Shown in pieces: positions 3,541 to 57,003 of a stretch of 64,000 nucleotides of DNA (its first letter is position 1; every line of letters begins with the position of its first letter). The notes below the pieces were generated by a model. That model was not told the DNA's origin. It worked only from the letters and a program-made list of their open reading frames with translations, and ran no database searches. This stretch comes from Centipeda artemidis DSM 19719. GTDB taxonomy: Bacteria > Bacillota > Negativicutes > Selenomonadales > Selenomonadaceae. Location of the stretch: positions 186,001-250,000 of the forward strand of contig NZ_AUFU01000001.1 of the NCBI RefSeq assembly GCF_000426665.1. The letters are read 5' to 3'. The translations under genes were made by a program, and so were the position numbers.

Positions 3541-4521
3541 TTAGAGAAGCGCCTTGCGCAGTTCCTCGCCGCTCTGTGCGCAGATGTAGGAGGGCGCAAT
3601 GTCCAGTACCGTCCTGCATCCCGTCGCGCCCTCTTTGGCAAGGCGATGCGCCGCGCGCGCATACGCCGCGAGCACGTTCGCCGTGAACTCGGGGTTCGAG
3701 TCGAGCTTCAGGCTGTACTCGATGACATGCTTGTGCTCGCCGCCCTTTCCGGTTGCCCCGGAACGAATGACGAAACCTCCGTGCGCAAGCCCCGCATGGT
3801 CGCGCCGGAGTTCCTCCTCGCTGATGAAATGCACCGTCGTGTCGTAGTCCGAGAAGTAGTTCGGCATCGTCACGATCGCCTTCTCAACAGCCGCGGCATC
3901 AGCGCCCGCCTCGAGAACGACATAGCACTCGCGGGTGTGCTTTTCGCGCGTCGAGAGCGTCGGATTCGAGCCGCTGCGCACAGCCTCCAGAGCCGCCGGA
4001 ACGGGCACAGTATACTGCTTTGCATCCTTCACGCCCGGAATGCGGCGGATCGCATCGGAATGCCCCTGACTGACGCCGCGCCCCCAGAACGTGTAATCTG
4101 CGCCGCCCGGCAGAATCGCGTTGCTGTAGACGCGGTTCAGCGAGAACATGCCCGGATCCCAGCCGACCGAGATGATGCCGACGCGTCCCGCCGCCTTTGC
4201 CGCCGCATCCACCGCCGCAAAATGCGCGGGGATCTTCGCGTGCGTGTCGAAACTGTCCACCACATTGAACAGCTTTGCAAAGGCCGGTGTCTGCTCCGGA
4301 AGATCGGTCGCCGAACCGCCGCAGAGAATCAGCACATCCACCTTATCCTTCCACTCTGCCGCCGCGCTTGCGGAGACGACGGGCACGCCTGAGCGCACCT
4401 TGACCGACGCGGGATCGCGCCGCGTAAAGACGACGACGAGCTCCAGATCCGCATTTGCCTCCACAGCGTACTCGACGCCGCGTCCGAGATTCCCATAGCC
4501 CAAAATTCCAATTCGTGTCAT
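3541..4521 (-). CDS. ddh: meso-Diaminopimelate D-dehydrogenase
   Basis: Ddh reductively aminates L-2-amino-6-oxopimelate to meso-diaminopimelate with NADPH and ammonia, a one-step branch of lysine and peptidoglycan precursor synthesis. The 326-residue protein matches the family length. It has an N-terminal Rossmann motif IGILGYGNLG (residues 4-13) and the conserved VGWDPGMFSLNRVYSNAILP and TFWGRGVSQGHSDAIRRIPG segments. ATG 4521 follows GGAGGAG; the frame extends to 4575 without a better site. The small gene ending at 4582 lies 60 bases upstream and probably shares the transcript. The terminator at 3483-3517 closes the unit. Confidence 0.95.
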   Translation of the reverse strand: MTRIGILGYGNLGRGVEYAVEANADLELVVVFTRRDPASVKVRSGVPVVSASAAAEWKDKVDVLILCGGSATDLPEQTPAFAKLFNVVDSFDTHAKIPAHFAAVDAAAKAAGRVGIISVGWDPGMFSLNRVYSNAILPGGADYTFWGRGVSQGHSDAIRRIPGVKDAKQYTVPVPAALEAVRSGSNPTLSTREKHTRECYVVLEAGADAAAVEKAIVTMPNYFSDYDTTVHFISEEELRRDHAGLAHGGFVIRSGATGKGGEHKHVIEYSLKLDSNPEFTANVLAAYARAAHRLAKEGATGCRTVLDIAPSYICAQSGEELRKALL

Positions 4522-44256: not shown

Positions 44257-47200
44257 CTATATCCTTTCGACGTTGGCGAGGCAGGCCTTAAACTCCTGCT
44301 CCTGCACGTTCGGATCGAGCGCGTCGATCGTCAGATAGTTGCCGGAGGGGCCTGTCGACAGTCCCTTGAACCCCCAGTTGTAGGGGAGCCAAATCATATG
44401 CGTCTCTTTGCCGTTGACCATGAGCGGTCGGGCGCGCTTGGTGACCATTGCCTTGACCTCGATGCTCGCGCGTGTCGTGCTGACGCGGACGCGGTCACCG
44501 CCGCGAACGCCGAGCTTCGCGGCGAGTTTATCTGAGATCTCGACGAACGGCTCTTTGACCAGCTCGTTGAGATAGGGGATATTGCGCGTGATCGTGCCGG
44601 AACACCAGTGCTCGGTGAGACTCGATGTGCAGAGCACGTACGGATACTCGTCGGGCGTTCCGATCTTTTGCAGTTCGGGCACGCGCGGATAGATGACGCA
44701 GGGGTTGAATTGTGTGCGCTGTCCTTCGTTCATCATGTTCTTCGTCGGGCTCTCAACCGGTTCGTAAAACTCAGGCAGAGGACCGTCAACGGGAACGTAG
44801 GAGTGATCGCGCGTCTCGCCGTTCTCAACGTCGCTGTACTCAGCGGCAAAGAGGCGGGCGATGCCCTCGCCGTTCATGCGGAACGGCTTCTGTCCGCCCG
44901 GGGTGTTCGGTCCCTGCGTGCGGTCGCCGACATCGGGGACATCGTAGCCGTCCCACATGCCCTTTTTCTCGTCCCACCAGACGAGTTTCTGCCCCGGCCG
45001 CACCGGTTTGCCGTTCTCGTCACAGGAGGCTCGGTTATACAGCATGTGAATGTTGTCCGGCCAGACCCAGGCGAAGTTCGGATAGATGCCCATGCCGCCC
45101 TCGTCCTCCTGCCCGCGGCGCCGCGCCATATGGACGCCGTCGCCGTAGACACCGGTGAAGATCCACATGCCCGCCATCGTCGTGCCGTCGTCGCGGATCT
45201 CTCGAATGCCGCGCAGGAGATGGCCGTCCTTTAGATCGTAGCCGTTGCATTCCTTCATGACGTTTTCGACGTAGGTCTGTCCGTCCTCGGGGTCGCCGTA
45301 GTTCCACGTCATCATTTTGATCACGTTGTCTTTCGGATCGGTCGAATCCTTGTAGAGTTCGACGATGCGTTTCCACAGTTTGTCGCAGATCCAGTAATCG
45401 GGACGCGAATCGTTCACGAGGTCGGGACCTTTCATGCGCCATTGGATCATGCGCATGGAGTTCGTCATCGTGCCGCAGCGCTCGAGATAGGAGCCCGCCG
45501 GCAGGAAGATGACCTCGGTGTTGATGTCCGCAGGATTATCGCCCGGACGCTCCCAGAACGCCGCCGTCTCGTTGACGAAGACGTCCTGCACGATGAGCGT
45601 GTCGATGCCCTTGAGCCCCTTGTTGACGATGGTGAGGTTCGCATTCGTCATCTGCGGGTTCTGTCCGCAGACGTAGATCGTCTTGACCTTTCCCTCCATC
45701 GCCTTCTCGAACATGACGTACATGGAATCGTTATGCGTGCCGTTGCGGATCGGGAGCGCGTTGAACATATAGTCGTTCGCCGCCGTCGCCGCGTCGCCGA
45801 ACCACGCTTTGAGGAGGTTCTTGAGAAATTTCGCGCGGAACGTGCCATTGTGGTGCGTCCACTTCGCGAGCGTATCGTCCGTGTGCGTCGGGTACGAAAG
45901 GTACGCGGGATAATACTGGAACATGATGCCGTAATCGGTCGAGGATTGTACGTTCGGCTGCCCGCGCATCGCGTCGATGCCGCCGCCCGAGACGCCGATG
46001 TTGCCCATGAGGAGCTGGATGATGGTGAAGCAGCGCAGATTCTCCACACCGACCGTGTGCTGCGTCATGCCAAGCGCATACATCATAACCGTCGGCGTAA
46101 TGGTGGAGAACAGCTCCGCGGCTTTCTTAATATCCGCCTCGGGCATCCCCGTGATCGCCGCCGCCTTTTCGAACGTATAGCGTTGGAAATGTTCTGCGAG
46201 ACGATCCATGACGGTGTTCTTTGCCGCCATGCTGCTCGCCTTCATTGGCTTGCCGTTCGCATCCAGTTGGTAGCCCCAAGTCTCTTTGTTATAAGTCCGT
46301 GTTTTTTCGTCGTAGCCGGAGAAAATACCGGCGTCAAATTCGTAATCGTCGCGCAGAAGGCAGAAGGCGTTCGTGTTCCGCCGCAGATAATCGGCATCGT
46401 ATTTTTTGTTCTGGATGATGTAGTTGATGATAGCGCCGAGGAAGACGATATCCGTCCCCGGACGGAGCTGGAAGAAGTGATCGGCAACGCGGGATGTGCG
46501 TGTATAGCGGACGTCGACATGGACGACGATGGCGCCGTTGTCGCGCGCCTCCATAACGTTCTTCATCGCCATTGGATGGCACTCCGCCATATTCGATCCT
46601 TCGATCCAAATCATCTTGGCGTGCTTTAAGTTATACCACGAGCCGGTCATCGCGCCGCGGCCAAACGCGGCGTTCAGCGCGGGCGGCGTGGTCGCGTGGC
46701 AAACGCGCGTCTGATTGTCGATATAGACGACGCCGAGTGCGCGCGCCATCTTGATGAGCTGATAGCACTCCTCGTTGTTGACCTGCGAGCCGCCGATGAA
46801 GGCGATGGCGTCCGTGCGGTTGCTCATGAACTTATAGCCGTTCGCTTCGTCTTGACCGACCCAGTGCTCGTCACGCGCCTTCTTCAGCGCGCGTGCCGCG
46901 CGGTCGATGGCCTCCTCCCAGCTAATCTCCACCCACCGGTCGCTGCCGGGCGCGCGGTACATCGGGCTCTTCGGCCGCTCCGCCGAGTTTGGGATGTGTC
47001 CGTAACCAAGCCCCTTCGGGCATAGTCCTCCGCGGTTCACCGGATGATCCGGCGCCCCCTCGAGATTGATGAGTTTCCCCTCTTTGACGTAGCCGAGCGT
47101 ACCGCAGCCGCAGCCGCAGAAGTGACAGACGGAGGTAAATTCGCGTCCCCCCGACAGCTTATACGTCTGTGCAGCCGCTTTCACAGGGGCAACGTCGAGT

Positions 47201-47274
47201 CCGAGACTCGCCAGAGCCAGCCCGACGCCGCTTAGCCCGGTGGCTTTTAAAAAGTCACGTCTGCTAAGGTTCAT
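44257..47274 (-). CDS. fdnG: Formate dehydrogenase catalytic (alpha) subunit, Tat-exported, Cys form
   Basis: This Mo-bis-MGD enzyme oxidises formate to CO2 in the periplasm. The 1005-residue protein has a Tat signal (SRRDFLK, 4-10), a [4Fe-4S] ligand set C50-x2-C53-x3-C57-x27-C85, and the active-site segment DNQTRVCHATTPP with Cys192-His193. E. coli FdnG has selenocysteine at this place; the codon here is TGC, so this is the selenium-independent form. FGRGAMTGSWYNLKHA and the C-terminal MGD domain follow as in FdnG. AAAGGAG lies seven bases before ATG 47274. fdhD precedes and fdhE, fdhB, fdhC follow. Confidence 0.97.
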   Translation of the reverse strand: MNLSRRDFLKATGLSGVGLALASLGLDVAPVKAAAQTYKLSGGREFTSVCHFCGCGCGTLGYVKEGKLINLEGAPDHPVNRGGLCPKGLGYGHIPNSAERPKSPMYRAPGSDRWVEISWEEAIDRAARALKKARDEHWVGQDEANGYKFMSNRTDAIAFIGGSQVNNEECYQLIKMARALGVVYIDNQTRVCHATTPPALNAAFGRGAMTGSWYNLKHAKMIWIEGSNMAECHPMAMKNVMEARDNGAIVVHVDVRYTRTSRVADHFFQLRPGTDIVFLGAIINYIIQNKKYDADYLRRNTNAFCLLRDDYEFDAGIFSGYDEKTRTYNKETWGYQLDANGKPMKASSMAAKNTVMDRLAEHFQRYTFEKAAAITGMPEADIKKAAELFSTITPTVMMYALGMTQHTVGVENLRCFTIIQLLMGNIGVSGGGIDAMRGQPNVQSSTDYGIMFQYYPAYLSYPTHTDDTLAKWTHHNGTFRAKFLKNLLKAWFGDAATAANDYMFNALPIRNGTHNDSMYVMFEKAMEGKVKTIYVCGQNPQMTNANLTIVNKGLKGIDTLIVQDVFVNETAAFWERPGDNPADINTEVIFLPAGSYLERCGTMTNSMRMIQWRMKGPDLVNDSRPDYWICDKLWKRIVELYKDSTDPKDNVIKMMTWNYGDPEDGQTYVENVMKECNGYDLKDGHLLRGIREIRDDGTTMAGMWIFTGVYGDGVHMARRRGQEDEGGMGIYPNFAWVWPDNIHMLYNRASCDENGKPVRPGQKLVWWDEKKGMWDGYDVPDVGDRTQGPNTPGGQKPFRMNGEGIARLFAAEYSDVENGETRDHSYVPVDGPLPEFYEPVESPTKNMMNEGQRTQFNPCVIYPRVPELQKIGTPDEYPYVLCTSSLTEHWCSGTITRNIPYLNELVKEPFVEISDKLAAKLGVRGGDRVRVSTTRASIEVKAMVTKRARPLMVNGKETHMIWLPYNWGFKGLSTGPSGNYLTIDALDPNVQEQEFKACLANVERI

Positions 47275-52492: not shown

Positions 52493-53521
52493 CTACTTTC
52501 CAAACGGACAGACGGGATAGTGACAGACCTTGCACTCCATGCACAGCCCGCCGATGCCGAGCCGGCGAATCTGACGCCGCGTCCACTCGCTCCCTGCCAC
52601 AACGCGCGGCAATACGATGTCAAAGATGGTCGCGGGCGAGTACATCACGCAGCCCGGCAGTCCCATGATGGGCACCTGCCGCCCCTCTTTTTCATAATAC
52701 GAGAGCATGAACATCGCGCCCGGGAGTACGGGTGCGCCGTAGGTCACGACGCGCGCCCCCGTCGCCTTGATCGCGGCGGGCGTGCGGTCGTCGGGATCGA
52801 CGCTCATGCCGCCCGTGCAGAGCACCATGTCCATGCCCATGTCGAGCAGCTCCGCGATCGCCGCGCGCGTGTGCTCCGTTCCGTCGTCCGAGAGACGGTG
52901 CTCGTCCACACGCAGCCCGAACGAGCGCAGCTTACTGTCAAGCACGGGCGTAAACGTATCCTTGATGCGCCCATGGAACACCTCGGAGCCTGTCGTCACG
53001 ACGCCGACTTTCATTTTTCTGTATGGCAAAAGGCGCAGCAGCGGCTCATTGCCCGCCGCAACGCGTACCTGTTCCATAATTCCTTTTTCAATCACAAGAG
53101 GGATGACGCGCATCCCTGCGAGCTTTGCCCCCGCCTTCACCGGGTAATGCTGCGCGATCGTCGCGATCATCACGTCGTCGATGTCGTTCACCGCGTCAAG
53201 ACGCTCCTCGTCGAGCTCAAAAACGCCGTCGACCGTCGCCTTCAGCTCGATCTTGCCCTCTTTCGGCTCGCTCGCCGTCATGTGCTCGTTTTGACAAAGA
53301 TCGCGCAGGATCGCCGCCGCATCGTTCTCGTGCAGCATCCGCTCGTTCTCTTCCCACACATAGAGATGCTCCTTGCCCAGCCGCAGGAGCACGGGAATGT
53401 CGTCCAGCCGGATCACATCTCCCTTGCGGAACCGCGCGCCCTTCGTCCTGCCGCGCACAATCTCGGTAATGTCATGGCAAAGCGTCATACCGACCGCATC
53501 CTGCACACGCACCTCACGCAT
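52493..53521 (-). CDS. MoeA-like molybdopterin-binding protein with Cys-rich tail
   Basis: The 342-residue protein starts MREVRVQDAVGMTLCHDITE, then has the MoCF_biosynth domain (KVGVVTTGSEVFHGRIKDTF, VLCTGGMSVDPDDRTPAAIK, PIMGLPGCVMYSPATIFDI) but lacks the full MoeA domain set. It ends in LCMECKVCHYPVCPFGK, four Cys in 12 residues that could bind a metal or cluster. Such proteins accompany molybdoenzyme operons in anaerobic Firmicutes; the exact reaction is unknown. GGGGAG precedes ATG 53521. It is the first gene of the minus-strand molybdenum/formate operon. Confidence 0.9.
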   Translation of the reverse strand: MREVRVQDAVGMTLCHDITEIVRGRTKGARFRKGDVIRLDDIPVLLRLGKEHLYVWEENERMLHENDAAAILRDLCQNEHMTASEPKEGKIELKATVDGVFELDEERLDAVNDIDDVMIATIAQHYPVKAGAKLAGMRVIPLVIEKGIMEQVRVAAGNEPLLRLLPYRKMKVGVVTTGSEVFHGRIKDTFTPVLDSKLRSFGLRVDEHRLSDDGTEHTRAAIAELLDMGMDMVLCTGGMSVDPDDRTPAAIKATGARVVTYGAPVLPGAMFMLSYYEKEGRQVPIMGLPGCVMYSPATIFDIVLPRVVAGSEWTRRQIRRLGIGGLCMECKVCHYPVCPFGK

Positions 53522-53857
53522 AGTCTCCCCCCGTTCCGTCGGTGCCGACATCCGCGCGCCCATATTCGCACAAATGCCGCAATATAATACACAGTTCGAA
53601 CGAATCTAGAGCGACTCGTTTCAAATTAACATCTAGTTAAAACTCATTCTCACTTATACATTCTTTTTATTGATTATAGCACATCAAATAAATTTTCTCT
53701 ATGACTTTTTTCACAGCAACCGTGCAAAATAACTAGAATAGTTTTGCCTCTGAGCCGGCTCTCACAGTGTTTCTTTTCCATGAAAGTGACAAAAGGCATT
53801 GATTTTCTCCCACCACTAGGATATGATGAACACATTAGAACGGAAAGGAGGAGCATC
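53522..53857. promoter_or_regulatory. Divergent control region of the molybdenum island
   Basis: These 336 bases hold no gene. On the minus strand a perfect TATAAT (complement of 53673-53678) would give a leader of about 145 bases before the MoeA-like gene. The stretch contains several TCTAG/CTAGTTA-type repeats and a palindrome GAGCCGGCTC near 53751-53760 followed by TTTC/GAAA arms, all upstream of the moaC promoter. I could not match a known Mo-cofactor riboswitch or ModE site. Confidence 0.5.
53799..53827 (+). promoter_or_regulatory. Sigma-A promoter of moaC-modABC
   Basis: TTGATT (53799-53804) and TATGAT (53822-53827) are 17 bases apart, about 30 bases before the moaC start. Confidence 0.65.
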
Positions 53858-54334
53858 ATGCCGAATCTAACGCATTTCGACGAGCACGGCGCCGCCGTCA
53901 TGGTCGACGTGAGCGGCAAGGAAACGACGCACCGCGAAGCCCTCGCGACGGGCATCATCCGCGTGAGCGAGGCGGTCTATGCCGCCATCGAGGGCGGCAC
54001 GGCGGCAAAGGGCGACGTCCTCGGCGTCGCGCGCATCGCGGGCATCATGGCGGCAAAGCGCACGTCGGACACGATCCCGCTCTGCCACCCGCTGCCGATC
54101 TCGAAATGCACCGTCGACTTCACGCTCACGCGCGATCCGCAGCCGATCGTCCGCGCCGCCGCGACCGTCAAGGTCACGGGCGAGACGGGCGTCGAGATGG
54201 AAGCCCTGCACGCCGTCAGCGTCGCGCTGCTGACCGTCTACGACATGTGCAAGGCGATCGACAAGCGCATGGAGATCACGGACATCCGCCTCGAACGCAA
54301 GTCCGGCGGCAAAAGCGGCACATTCATCCGCTGA
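53858..54334 (+). CDS. moaC: Cyclic pyranopterin monophosphate synthase MoaC
   Basis: MoaC converts 3',8-cH2GTP from MoaA to cPMP. The 158-residue protein has the signature [40 protein letters not shown] and the C-terminal KSGGKSG. AAAGGAGG precedes ATG 53858. It heads the plus-strand unit moaC-modABC. Start positions further upstream in the frame lie before the promoter and are excluded. Confidence 0.96.
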
Positions 54335-54338
54335 CCAC

Positions 54339-54459
54339 AGTCCCCACGGGGAACTCCGAGCAGGACGGCTCTACGGCACGGCTACGAGCTCCTGCCTGAC
54401 GCACGCGCGTCACGGGGTATGGGAGGAAACCCTCATGCCTACCTATTTTTGTAAAGGAG
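54339..54459 (+). promoter_or_regulatory. Candidate structured RNA leader before modA
   Basis: The 133-base gap between moaC and modA folds locally into successive hairpins: 54339-54355; 54360-54395 (GCAGGA with TCCTGC, plus GCTC with GAGC, 2-base bulge); 54397-54412 (TGACGC with GCGTCA, tetraloop); and 54416-54439, a 10-bp stem with one A-C mismatch and two G-U pairs capped by a GAAA tetraloop. The modA ribosome site AAAGGAG (54453-54459) follows directly. The form suggests a cis-acting regulator of molybdate uptake; no family match is claimed. Confidence 0.45.
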
Positions 54460-54467
54460 TATACCAA

Positions 54468-55277
54468 ATGAACCTGAACATCAAGAAAATGCTGACCGTC
54501 GCCGTCGCTTCGACGGCACTGCTCGCCGCAGGCTGCGGCGGCGGAGACAACAAAGCCGCCGACGCGCCGAAGAAAGCCGCCGAGAACGTCGAGCTGCAGG
54601 TCTCCGCGGCGGCGAGCCTCACGGACGCCATGAAGGACCTCACCACGATGTACGAGAAGGATCACTCGAACGTGAAGCTCGTCTATAACTTCGGCAGCAG
54701 CGGCGCGCTCCAGCAGGCGATCGAAAACGGCGGCGCCGCCGACGTATTCGTCTCCGCCGCACAAAAGCAGATGAACGCGCTCGATGAGAAGAAGCTCCTC
54801 GAGGGCGGCACGCGCGTCGACCTCCTCATCAACGACGTCGTCCTCATCACGGCGAAGGACAGCAAGCTGAACCTGCCCGACTTTAAGGCAGTGCTCGATC
54901 CCGCGGTCAAGCACATCGCGCTCGGCGAGCCGAAGGGCGTCCCCGTCGGACAGTACAGCGAAGAGGTCTTTACGAAGCTCGGCATCCTCGATCAGGTCAA
55001 AGAGCGTGCCGTCTACGGCTCCGACGTCCGTCAGGTGCTCGCATGGGTCGAGACGGGCGACGCGGACTGCGGCGTCGTCTACGCAACGGATGCAGCCGTC
55101 TCCGATAAGGTAAAGGTCGCCGCCGTCGCCCCCGCCGACACGCACAAGCCCATCGTCTACCCCGCAGCCGTCCTCAAGGATGCGCCGCATATGGAAGCCG
55201 CGAAAGAATTCCTCACATTCATTCAATCGGATGCAGCGAAGGAAGTCTTTAAGAAATACGGCTTCACCGTGAAATAA
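54468..55277 (+). CDS. modA: Molybdate ABC transporter substrate-binding lipoprotein
   Basis: ModA captures molybdate or tungstate in the periplasm. The 269-residue protein has a lipobox LAAGC (Cys23) and the ModA fold with oxyanion-binding segments SAAASLTDAMKDL, YNFGSSGALQQAIENGGAAD, GEPKGVPVGQYSEEV and VYATDAAVSDKV. AAAGGAG lies eight bases before ATG 54468; an ATG at 54435 falls inside the hairpin leader. Its stop overlaps the modB start by one base. Confidence 0.96.
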   Translation: MNLNIKKMLTVAVASTALLAAGCGGGDNKAADAPKKAAENVELQVSAAASLTDAMKDLTTMYEKDHSNVKLVYNFGSSGALQQAIENGGAADVFVSAAQKQMNALDEKKLLEGGTRVDLLINDVVLITAKDSKLNLPDFKAVLDPAVKHIALGEPKGVPVGQYSEEVFTKLGILDQVKERAVYGSDVRQVLAWVETGDADCGVVYATDAAVSDKVKVAAVAPADTHKPIVYPAAVLKDAPHMEAAKEFLTFIQSDAAKEVFKKYGFTVK

Positions 55278-55945
55278 TGACGGACGAAACACTCTCACCG
55301 CTCATCATATCGCTCCAGGTCTCGGGGCTGGCGACCGTGATCACATTCTTCGTCGGCATCGCGCTCGCATGGGGCGTCCTGCAGATTCGCAGCCGCTTTG
55401 CGAGCACCGCCGCCGACGCGATCATCACGCTCCCGCTCGTCCTGCCGCCGACCGTCGTCGGATTCTTCCTCCTGCTCTTTCTTGGAAAGCGCAGCGCCAT
55501 CGGGAGTTTCCTCCTCTCGCTTGACCTGCCGCTCGTCTTTACATGGCGCGCGGCGGTCATCGCGGCGGTCATCGTGAGCCTGCCGCTCATGTACCGCACG
55601 GCGCGCGGCGCCTTCGAGGCGATCGACCGGAACATGATCCACGCGGCACAGACGCTCAGCGTCAGCAATTGGCGCATCTTTTGGCGCATCGTCCTGCCGA
55701 ACGCGCGCCACGGCATCCTCGCGGGGCTCGTCCTCTCGTTTGCCCGTGCGCTCGGCGAGTTCGGCGCGACCATCATGTTCGCCGGCAACATTCCGCGGCA
55801 CACGCAGACGATGTCGACCGCGATCTACGCGGCGGTGCAGGCAAACGACTACGACCTCGCATTTCGCTGGGCAATCGTCATCTCGCTCTTTTCACTCGTC
55901 TTTATCGGCGCCATGAACCTCTATCTCAAGAGCGAGGTGCGCTGA
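55277..55945 (+). CDS. modB: Molybdate ABC transporter permease
   Basis: The 222-residue inner-membrane permease has five to six helices and the EAA-type coupling loop ARALGEFGATIMFAGNIPRH that docks on ModC. LPLVLPPTVVGFFLLLFLG is the typical second segment. It starts within the modA stop (TAATG) and its own TGA overlaps the modC ATG by one base, so the three genes are translationally coupled. Confidence 0.97.
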   Translation: MTDETLSPLIISLQVSGLATVITFFVGIALAWGVLQIRSRFASTAADAIITLPLVLPPTVVGFFLLLFLGKRSAIGSFLLSLDLPLVFTWRAAVIAAVIVSLPLMYRTARGAFEAIDRNMIHAAQTLSVSNWRIFWRIVLPNARHGILAGLVLSFARALGEFGATIMFAGNIPRHTQTMSTAIYAAVQANDYDLAFRWAIVISLFSLVFIGAMNLYLKSEVR

Positions 55946-57003
55946 TGGAGCTGATTGTAAACATCGAGAAAAAGCTGCGCGATTTCACGCTGCGAACGGA
56001 TTTCACACTCGGGGACACGACCCTCGCCCTCCTCGGCGCATCGGGCAGCGGCAAGAGCATGACGCTCAAATGCATCGCGGGACTTGAACACCCGGACAGC
56101 GGACGCATCGTCCTCAACGGGCGCACGCTCTTCGACAGTACGAAGGGCATCGACCTCCCGCCGCAGCAGCGGAACGTCGGCTACCTCTTTCAGAACTACG
56201 CCCTCTTTCCGAACATGACCGTGCGCGAGAACATCGTCTTCGCGCTCACGGGCACGGACGCGGAAAAGGAGCGCATCTTCACCGAAAACGTCGCACGGTT
56301 CTCCCTGCAAGGCCTTGAAAACGCCTATCCCACAGGGCTGTCCGGCGGACAGCAGCAGCGTGTCGCATTCGCGCGCATCCTCGCGCGCGGCGCGGAGATC
56401 CTGCTCCTCGACGAGCCGCTCTCCGCGCTCGACACGCATCTCAAATGGCAGATCGAGACCGTCCTGCGCGAGATACTCACCGCGCAGGACATCTCCGCCA
56501 TCCTCGTCACGCACGACCGCGACGAAGCGTTCCGCATCGCGCAGGAGATCGCAACCGTCGACCGCGGGACACTCACCCCGCCGATGGATAAGCACGCCCT
56601 CTTCAAAAATCCTGGCACGCGTGCCGCGACCATCCTCACGGGATGCAAGAATATCTCCGCCGCACGCCGCATCGACGACACGCACATCGGTGCGATCGAC
56701 TGGGGCGTCACGCTCGCCGTGCCGCAGGAGGCCGGGGATTGCCTTGAGAACGTCCGATCCGTTGCCATCCGCGCGCACCATATGAGCATCGCCGAAACGG
56801 GTGCGGAGAACACATTCCCCGCCGCCGTCACCGAGATCATCGAGAGCACATTCTCCTACATCGTCATGCTCCGATTCGCCTCGGACATGAAGAGCATCCG
56901 CTGGGAAGTAGACAAACCCATTTGGGCGGAGCACCCGCTGAGCCTCGGCGACATCGTCCCGTTCCGCCTCCCCACCGAACATCTCATGCTGCTGCGGGAT
57001 TAG
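55945..57003 (+). CDS. modC: Molybdate ABC transporter ATPase
   Basis: The 352-residue ATPase drives molybdate import. It has Walker A GASGSGKS (31-38), Q-loop FQNYALFPNM, signature LSGGQQQRVAFARIL, Walker B ILLLDEPLSALD and the switch His in LVTHDRDEAF. A C-terminal region of about 120 residues is the molybdate-binding TOBE (Mop) domain, which in homologues allows trans-inhibition by cytoplasmic molybdate. The unit ends at a perfect terminator. Confidence 0.97.
   Translation: MELIVNIEKKLRDFTLRTDFTLGDTTLALLGASGSGKSMTLKCIAGLEHPDSGRIVLNGRTLFDSTKGIDLPPQQRNVGYLFQNYALFPNMTVRENIVFALTGTDAEKERIFTENVARFSLQGLENAYPTGLSGGQQQRVAFARILARGAEILLLDEPLSALDTHLKWQIETVLREILTAQDISAILVTHDRDEAFRIAQEIATVDRGTLTPPMDKHALFKNPGTRAATILTGCKNISAARRIDDTHIGAIDWGVTLAVPQEAGDCLENVRSVAIRAHHMSIAETGAENTFPAAVTEIIESTFSYIVMLRFASDMKSIRWEVDKPIWAEHPLSLGDIVPFRLPTEHLMLLRD

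Follow-up and report, generated by a model that had tools for sequence, protein, structure and literature searches.

Gene content of the moaC-modA locus

Within the window (the whole stretch of 64,000 nucleotides analyzed here), moaC ends with its stop codon at 54332-54334 and modA starts with its ATG at 54468, followed by modB and a modC-like gene (Table 1). The names moaC and modA, already used in a preliminary description of this DNA, were borne out by TIGR00581 and TIGR01256 scores above the respective cut-offs. For the modC-like ATPase, 25 families were found among the matches listed, every one under its own cut-off. The opposite strand of the window carries moeA-like, moeA, moaA, MOSC-mogA, mobAB and fdhD-like genes, with FdhD and several others scoring under the curated cut-offs. 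Also on the minus strand, a molybdopterin oxidoreductase (44257-47274; PF00384, PF01568, PF04879) adjoins the fdhD-like gene and a frame that resembles fdhE by eye; it is most likely a formate dehydrogenase.

Table 1. Genes and RNA elements at the moaC-modA locus (window coordinates)
Feature	Position	Strand	Evidence
moaC, cyclic pyranopterin monophosphate synthase	53858..54334	+	TIGR00581 199.6 bits (cut-off 141.5), PF01967
Moco riboswitch RF01055	54342..54475	+	Covariance-model match, 61.4 bits
P1, 5' strand ACUCC	54353..54357	+	Rfam alignment, free-energy fold, pair counts
P2 with internal loop at the tetraloop-receptor place (UCUACG / CUACGA)	54360..54395	+	Rfam alignment, pair counts
P3 hairpin UGACG/CGUCA	54397..54412	+	Rfam alignment; 5/5 pairs changed on both sides
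P4 hairpin, GAAA tetraloop	54415..54440	+	Rfam alignment; 8/11 pairs changed on both sides
P5, two pairs AC / GU (UC / GA in many relatives)	54441..54452	+	Rfam alignment, pair counts; absent from free-energy fold
modA Shine-Dalgarno AAAGGAG, 8 bases 5' of ATG, GGAG paired in P1	54453..54459	+	Sequence, spacing
P1, 3' strand GGAGU	54456..54460	+	Rfam alignment, pair counts
modA, molybdate ABC transporter substrate-binding protein, predicted controlled gene	54468..55277	+	TIGR01256 213.8 bits (cut-off 62.5)
modB, molybdate ABC transporter permease	55277..55945	+	TIGR02141 above cut-off
modC-like ABC transporter ATPase	55945..57003	+	Named by position; TIGR02142 193.1 bits, under cut-off 285.05

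A Moco riboswitch in the modA leader

In order to place the hairpins between moaC and modA, the window was searched against 4227 Rfam families. A covariance search with the Moco model had been proposed in the preliminary description, and it returned a match to the full length of RF01055, the Moco (molybdenum/tungsten cofactor) riboswitch (model positions 1-135; cut-off 36 bits), with E = 2.6e-12 for the whole 64 kb window and 4.2e-14 for the short stretch. This was the sole Rfam match above cut-off within the window, and modA, a molybdate gene, lies directly 3' of it. The hairpins are thus an ordinary member of a known riboswitch family. The preliminary description had left open a molybdate or a Mo-cofactor RNA. 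The cofactor part stands with the full-length match; nothing was found in favor of direct molybdate sensing, and the ligand proposed for the family in the available part of Regulski et al. 2008 (PMC2408646) is Moco.

All five helices, P1 to P5, can form in this RNA, P5 with two pairs alone; in the family, P3 is optional. Four consecutive hairpins had been described before, and three of them correspond to P2, P3 and P4; the small first one (54342-54351) is not part of the conserved structure and has a sequence that the relatives do not share. The last, described as a 10-bp stem with a GAAA loop at 54416-54439, agrees with P4, which by reading has 10 standard pairs, an A.C mismatch at the second pair from the loop and the tip GGAAAC. 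What had been overlooked is the closing helix P1, which is the helix that matters for control. The 3' end of P4 is separated by 12 bases from the Shine-Dalgarno sequence. A free-energy fold gave P1 to P4 unaided, with the tip of P4 drawn differently and P5 missing, and forcing the 3' strand of P1 open cost about 6 kcal/mol (from -48.2 to -42.0). The fold energy itself is unremarkable (z = -1.73; 12/200 shuffles at least as good) and provides weak evidence for an RNA; it is the covariance-model E-value and the covariation described below, not the fold energy, that place the match beyond chance.

Conservation among related genomes

We compared 25 leaders (the window and 24 relatives) in an alignment built from sequence only. 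Here, 87.8% of the cells at paired positions were paired, compared with 38-44% when the partners were slid, and 25 of the 36 pairs showed changes on both sides somewhere with pairing kept. The covariation score was 0.472 against a shuffled mean of 0.173, and none of 500 shuffles reached any of the five measures used. The GAAA tetraloop is invariant throughout the alignment, from which RNAalifold recovered, unaided, P1 and parts of P2, P3 and P4. An absence of conserved stems from relatives, or an unrelated gap of variable length between the two genes, had been set beforehand as counter-evidence; the stems are kept with compensatory changes.

The preliminary description had also raised the possibility of a distinct Mo-sensing RNA with no relation to the Moco family. 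Such a class would account for a consensus that could not be matched by eye and for a tetraloop receptor slightly off the common letters. It is ruled out by the covariation of the stems together with the RF01055 match, which aligns every helix, and relatives with the same neighboring genes reach 76 bits in this very model; we consider the chance of a new class practically nil.

A ModA search of genome contigs yielded 66 named loci, all of which were scanned with Rfam. RF01055 was found 5' of modA in 32 of the 34 Selenomonadaceae-type loci (L060 and L063 are without it) and in 4/32 of the other modA loci (L080, L081, L084, L094); L069 has a copy elsewhere. The order of a divergent moeA-like gene, moaC, the RNA and modABC is shared by 8/8 of the closest named genomes, which belong to Selenomonas and Centipeda (L032-L039). 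In all likelihood, these eight assemblies are also present among the same-genus genomes discussed below, so that the two sets of counts are not independent. Among the 100 genomes nearest to that of the window, its own included, 41 carry a match to RF01055, 40 of them above cut-off. Two loci showed a peculiar arrangement. The modA leader of L060 retains a terminator-like hairpin (3937-3966) but gave no RF01055 match, which would fit a loss of the aptamer. A contig of another genome (G078:C21:14946-16024) carries three clustered matches on one strand, two of them slightly overlapping, out of 11 in that genome.

The copy in the window deviates from its relatives in several respects, which we counted against a working riboswitch. 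Its 61.4 bits are the lowest score in the nearest group (modA leaders of L032-L039: 63.8 to 76 bits), the P2 receptor reads CTACGG/CTACGA in place of the common CTAAGG/CTATGA (two substitutions, in the correct place), and there is the mismatch beside the P4 loop. A decayed copy that has lost its responsiveness would show a low score, an altered receptor and a damaged P4 tip of this kind. All of P1 to P5 remain formable, however, and the first receptor change (CTACGG) is also carried by L039 and L040, which score 76 and 68 bits; the second occurs in L034 and L035. We hold decay to be highly improbable and read the deviations, from the sequences at hand, as drift within a presumably working member.

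Predicted control of modABC translation

The Shine-Dalgarno sequence of modA lies within P1, as does the ribosome site of the E. coli moaA Moco RNA, which represses when Moco is made (PMC2408646, available part); therefore, a translational OFF switch is predicted here too. We regard it as very likely that this P3-bearing RF01055 member controls modABC translation and is OFF when Moco is abundant. Abundant Moco, or a close Moco metabolite, would bind at the P2/P3/P4 junction and stabilize P1, which would sequester the GGAG of the Shine-Dalgarno sequence, so that ribosomes could not start and molybdate uptake would drop. With scarce Moco, P1 would be open and modABC would be translated. The available part of PMC10845959 states that the exact metabolite recognized by the Moco riboswitch is still to be identified, E. 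coli included.

In a promoter scan, the stretch from 53828 to the RNA was free of promoter-like sites, and two were found on the plus strand upstream of moaC; the RNA is therefore probably internal to a single moaC-modABC transcript. Since the stop codon of moaC lies 7 bases ahead of the match, this gene would escape the translational OFF control exerted on modABC from within this transcript, and molybdate uptake would be uncoupled from MoaC synthesis.

P1 contains the modA ribosome site in the window and also in 18/32 named loci with an RNA before modA (16 detected by script, plus L043 and L051 by eye; L062 was flagged by script and dropped). The other 14 loci have a longer gap, and in 12 of them a hairpin of -12.9 kcal/mol or better precedes a T-rich run. 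The hairpin of L058 is weak, and none before a T-rich run was found in the modA leader gap of L049. A terminator can also be sought in the window itself, where the scan flagged 54415-54440 followed by ACCTATTTTT as terminator-like, which would turn P4 and the U run after it into a transcription attenuator. We rejected P4 as a terminator and consider attenuation here extremely improbable. The one such site stays below the shuffle mean of 1.2, the U run is not kept in the relatives, P4 belongs to the aptamer, and the Shine-Dalgarno sequence is itself a P1 strand.

Molybdenum, tungsten and the P3 helix

The RNA could, in principle, sense the tungsten cofactor (Tuco/Wco) instead of Moco. The two cofactors are near-identical, the transporter could also carry tungstate, and tungsten is usable by formate dehydrogenases. 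No enzyme of the AOR family (PF01314) was found in the genome of the window, however, and the two PF00384 enzymes found there resemble formate dehydrogenase and respiratory nitrate reductase. Moreover, the copy in the window possesses P3, which places it on the Moco side of a marker that is a correlation only: in the available part of Regulski et al. 2008 (PMC2408646), the presence of P3 is associated with Moco and not with the tungsten cofactor. Taken together, we judge a Tuco-sensing RNA very unlikely and retain Moco as the probable ligand.

By reading, copies without P3 precede modA in 9 of the 32 named Selenomonadaceae-type loci (L047, L049, L050, L053, L055, L058, L059, L061, L066). All nine fall among the 14 loci with the longer gap, and 7/9 have a clear terminator-like hairpin downstream. 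PF01314 was found in one of the 34 genomes reached via the named loci, that of L063, whose modA locus is without Moco RNA, and in 0/9 of the genomes with P3-less modA leaders. On this PF01314 result, we rejected P3-less copies as a sign of tungsten enzymes, and the rule that separates Moco from Tuco by P3 is unsupported by AOR in this group.

The missing molybdopterin synthase

Among 60 genomes searched, 57 gave no match to MoaE (PF02391, the large subunit of molybdopterin synthase); the genome of the window is one of these, and it gave no match to MoaD/ThiS (PF02597) either. Each search was positive in 11/14 control genomes. These missing proteins were counted against the Moco riboswitch reading. 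Despite them, the genome has a likely formate dehydrogenase, a nitrate reductase, MoaA, MoaC, MoeA, a MogA-like protein and MobAB. The available part of PMC6147048 makes no mention of such a loss of MoaE.

Divergent from moaC, on the minus strand (52493-53533), the window encodes a 346-aa protein with a MoCF_biosynth domain (residues 177-310) and a Cys-rich C-terminus, whose N-terminal half is without Pfam match. It was detected in 13 of the 14 genus genomes and, at E <= 1e-3, in 43 of the 60 genomes, some of these with weak domain matches only. For the missing dithiolene-sulphur step, this protein is a lead, nothing more.

Moco RNAs across the genus

The 14 genomes of the genus contain 41 copies of the Moco RNA, counted in part with stricter filters that drop weak matches: 13 before modA, 13 before a hydrogenase and 15 elsewhere. 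The modA copy is present in every genome except G013 and the hydrogenase copy in every one except G007, and all 14 genomes have the hydrogenase; a search of the stretch upstream of it in G007 for a missed copy gave no Rfam match. In the genome of the window, the second copy (G000:C4:67296-67438, minus strand, 66 bits) is separated by about 260-275 bases from a downstream [NiFe] hydrogenase operon, which comprises a small subunit (PF14720, PF01058), a large subunit (PF00374) and cytochrome b (PF01292), followed by frames that resemble hypF and hypD by eye.

A terminator-like hairpin was found in 13/13 hydrogenase leaders (-22.4 to -33.4 kcal/mol), although the T run after it is poor in G009, G010 and G013. 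The 3' strand of P1 and the bases that follow it can pair with the 5' arm of this hairpin, and this was the best linker window in 13/13 (0 of 34-46 windows as good; for G002, the last terminator match was taken and its end adjusted). Against shuffles of the partner, the pairing is moderate, with 1 to 66 of 300 as good; it includes only the outer part of P1 and, by reading, contains a mismatch in G012. This layout is suggestive of a transcriptional OFF switch with a possible antiterminator.

The regulon of the genus may extend beyond molybdenum metabolism. Plentiful Moco would terminate transcription of the membrane [NiFe] hydrogenase operon, so that this Mo-free enzyme would pass electrons to quinones only as long as the cell is unable to make formate dehydrogenase and nitrate reductase, and the modA copy would set the molybdenum supply of the same decision. 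We give this tentative reading a chance somewhat short of even. Cobalamin riboswitches control B12-independent isoenzymes, and, if the reading is true, the hydrogenase copy would be their Moco counterpart. The words "hydrogenase", "Selenomonas" and "TonB" are absent, by word search, from the available main text of Regulski et al. 2008 (PMC2408646). A literature search, with most subscription journals outside its reach, found no work joining Moco, riboswitch and NiFe hydrogenase.

Five of the 15 other copies precede a TonB-dependent receptor, identified by Pfam in L111 and by tblastn in L113, L118, L126 and L130, where the match of L113 is short and the frames of L118 and L126 look broken. This suggests Moco control of outer-membrane uptake. 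Furthermore, 8 of the 41 copies (L100, L105, L114, L121, L124, L128, L132, L135) represent a divergent aptamer sub-type, in which CTGTGG replaces CTAAGG in P2. Six of these eight are followed by a FecCD permease gene, namely L132 (by Pfam), L100, L105 and L135 and, as partial matches, L114 and L121 (by tblastn); none was found after L124 and L128. Two copies lie before an SBP_bac_11-type transporter, L112 by Pfam and L102 by the likeness of the frames that follow. Overall, most targets of the 15 other copies look like uptake of metal oxyanions or chelates. When the genes downstream were clustered automatically, unrelated ABC and receptor genes fell together, and only the hydrogenase groups were used from this clustering; modA, the receptor and the FecCD gene were settled by tblastn.

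A special case is G013, a genome of the same genus (one contig, 99% complete), in which searches for MoaC and the moeA-like protein gave no match and RF01055 was not found before modA; Moco synthesis seems to have been lost. The single Moco RNA of this genome precedes the hydrogenase and reaches 38.1 bits, just over the cut-off, compared with 42.4-66 bits in the other 12 hydrogenase copies, of which the 42.4-bit copy (G010) is a partial match, so that the low score is not far out. In this one genome, and with a small gap to the next score, the result fits an RNA that serves Moco and has lost its ligand.

Significance and comparison with known systems

The modA-leader RNA is a new member of a known riboswitch family, and gene contexts of this kind have been published before; modABC is named among the operons controlled in some bacteria in the available part of PMC2408646. 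Taken alone, it adds a clean family member, corrects a false lead and matters little. More interesting is the surrounding regulon, which merits a separate look. With modA preceded by a P3-bearing copy in some related bacteria and by a P3-less copy in others, and with a last copy near the cut-off in G013, this group could serve as a compact test bed for which metabolite the Moco family binds and for whether P3 decides between molybdenum and tungsten.

Compared with the Tuco/Wco variant, the RNA in the window shares the common core and differs by having P3. It resembles the E. coli moaA leader (Regulski et al. 2008, PMC2408646, available part) in its helices P1-P5, the GAAA loop of P4, the presence of P3, the ribosome site in P1 and a Mo-related target. 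In contrast to that leader, which stands before moaABCDE, it lies between moaC and modA, and its receptor reads CUACG/CUACG where CUAAG/CUAUG is common among its relatives.
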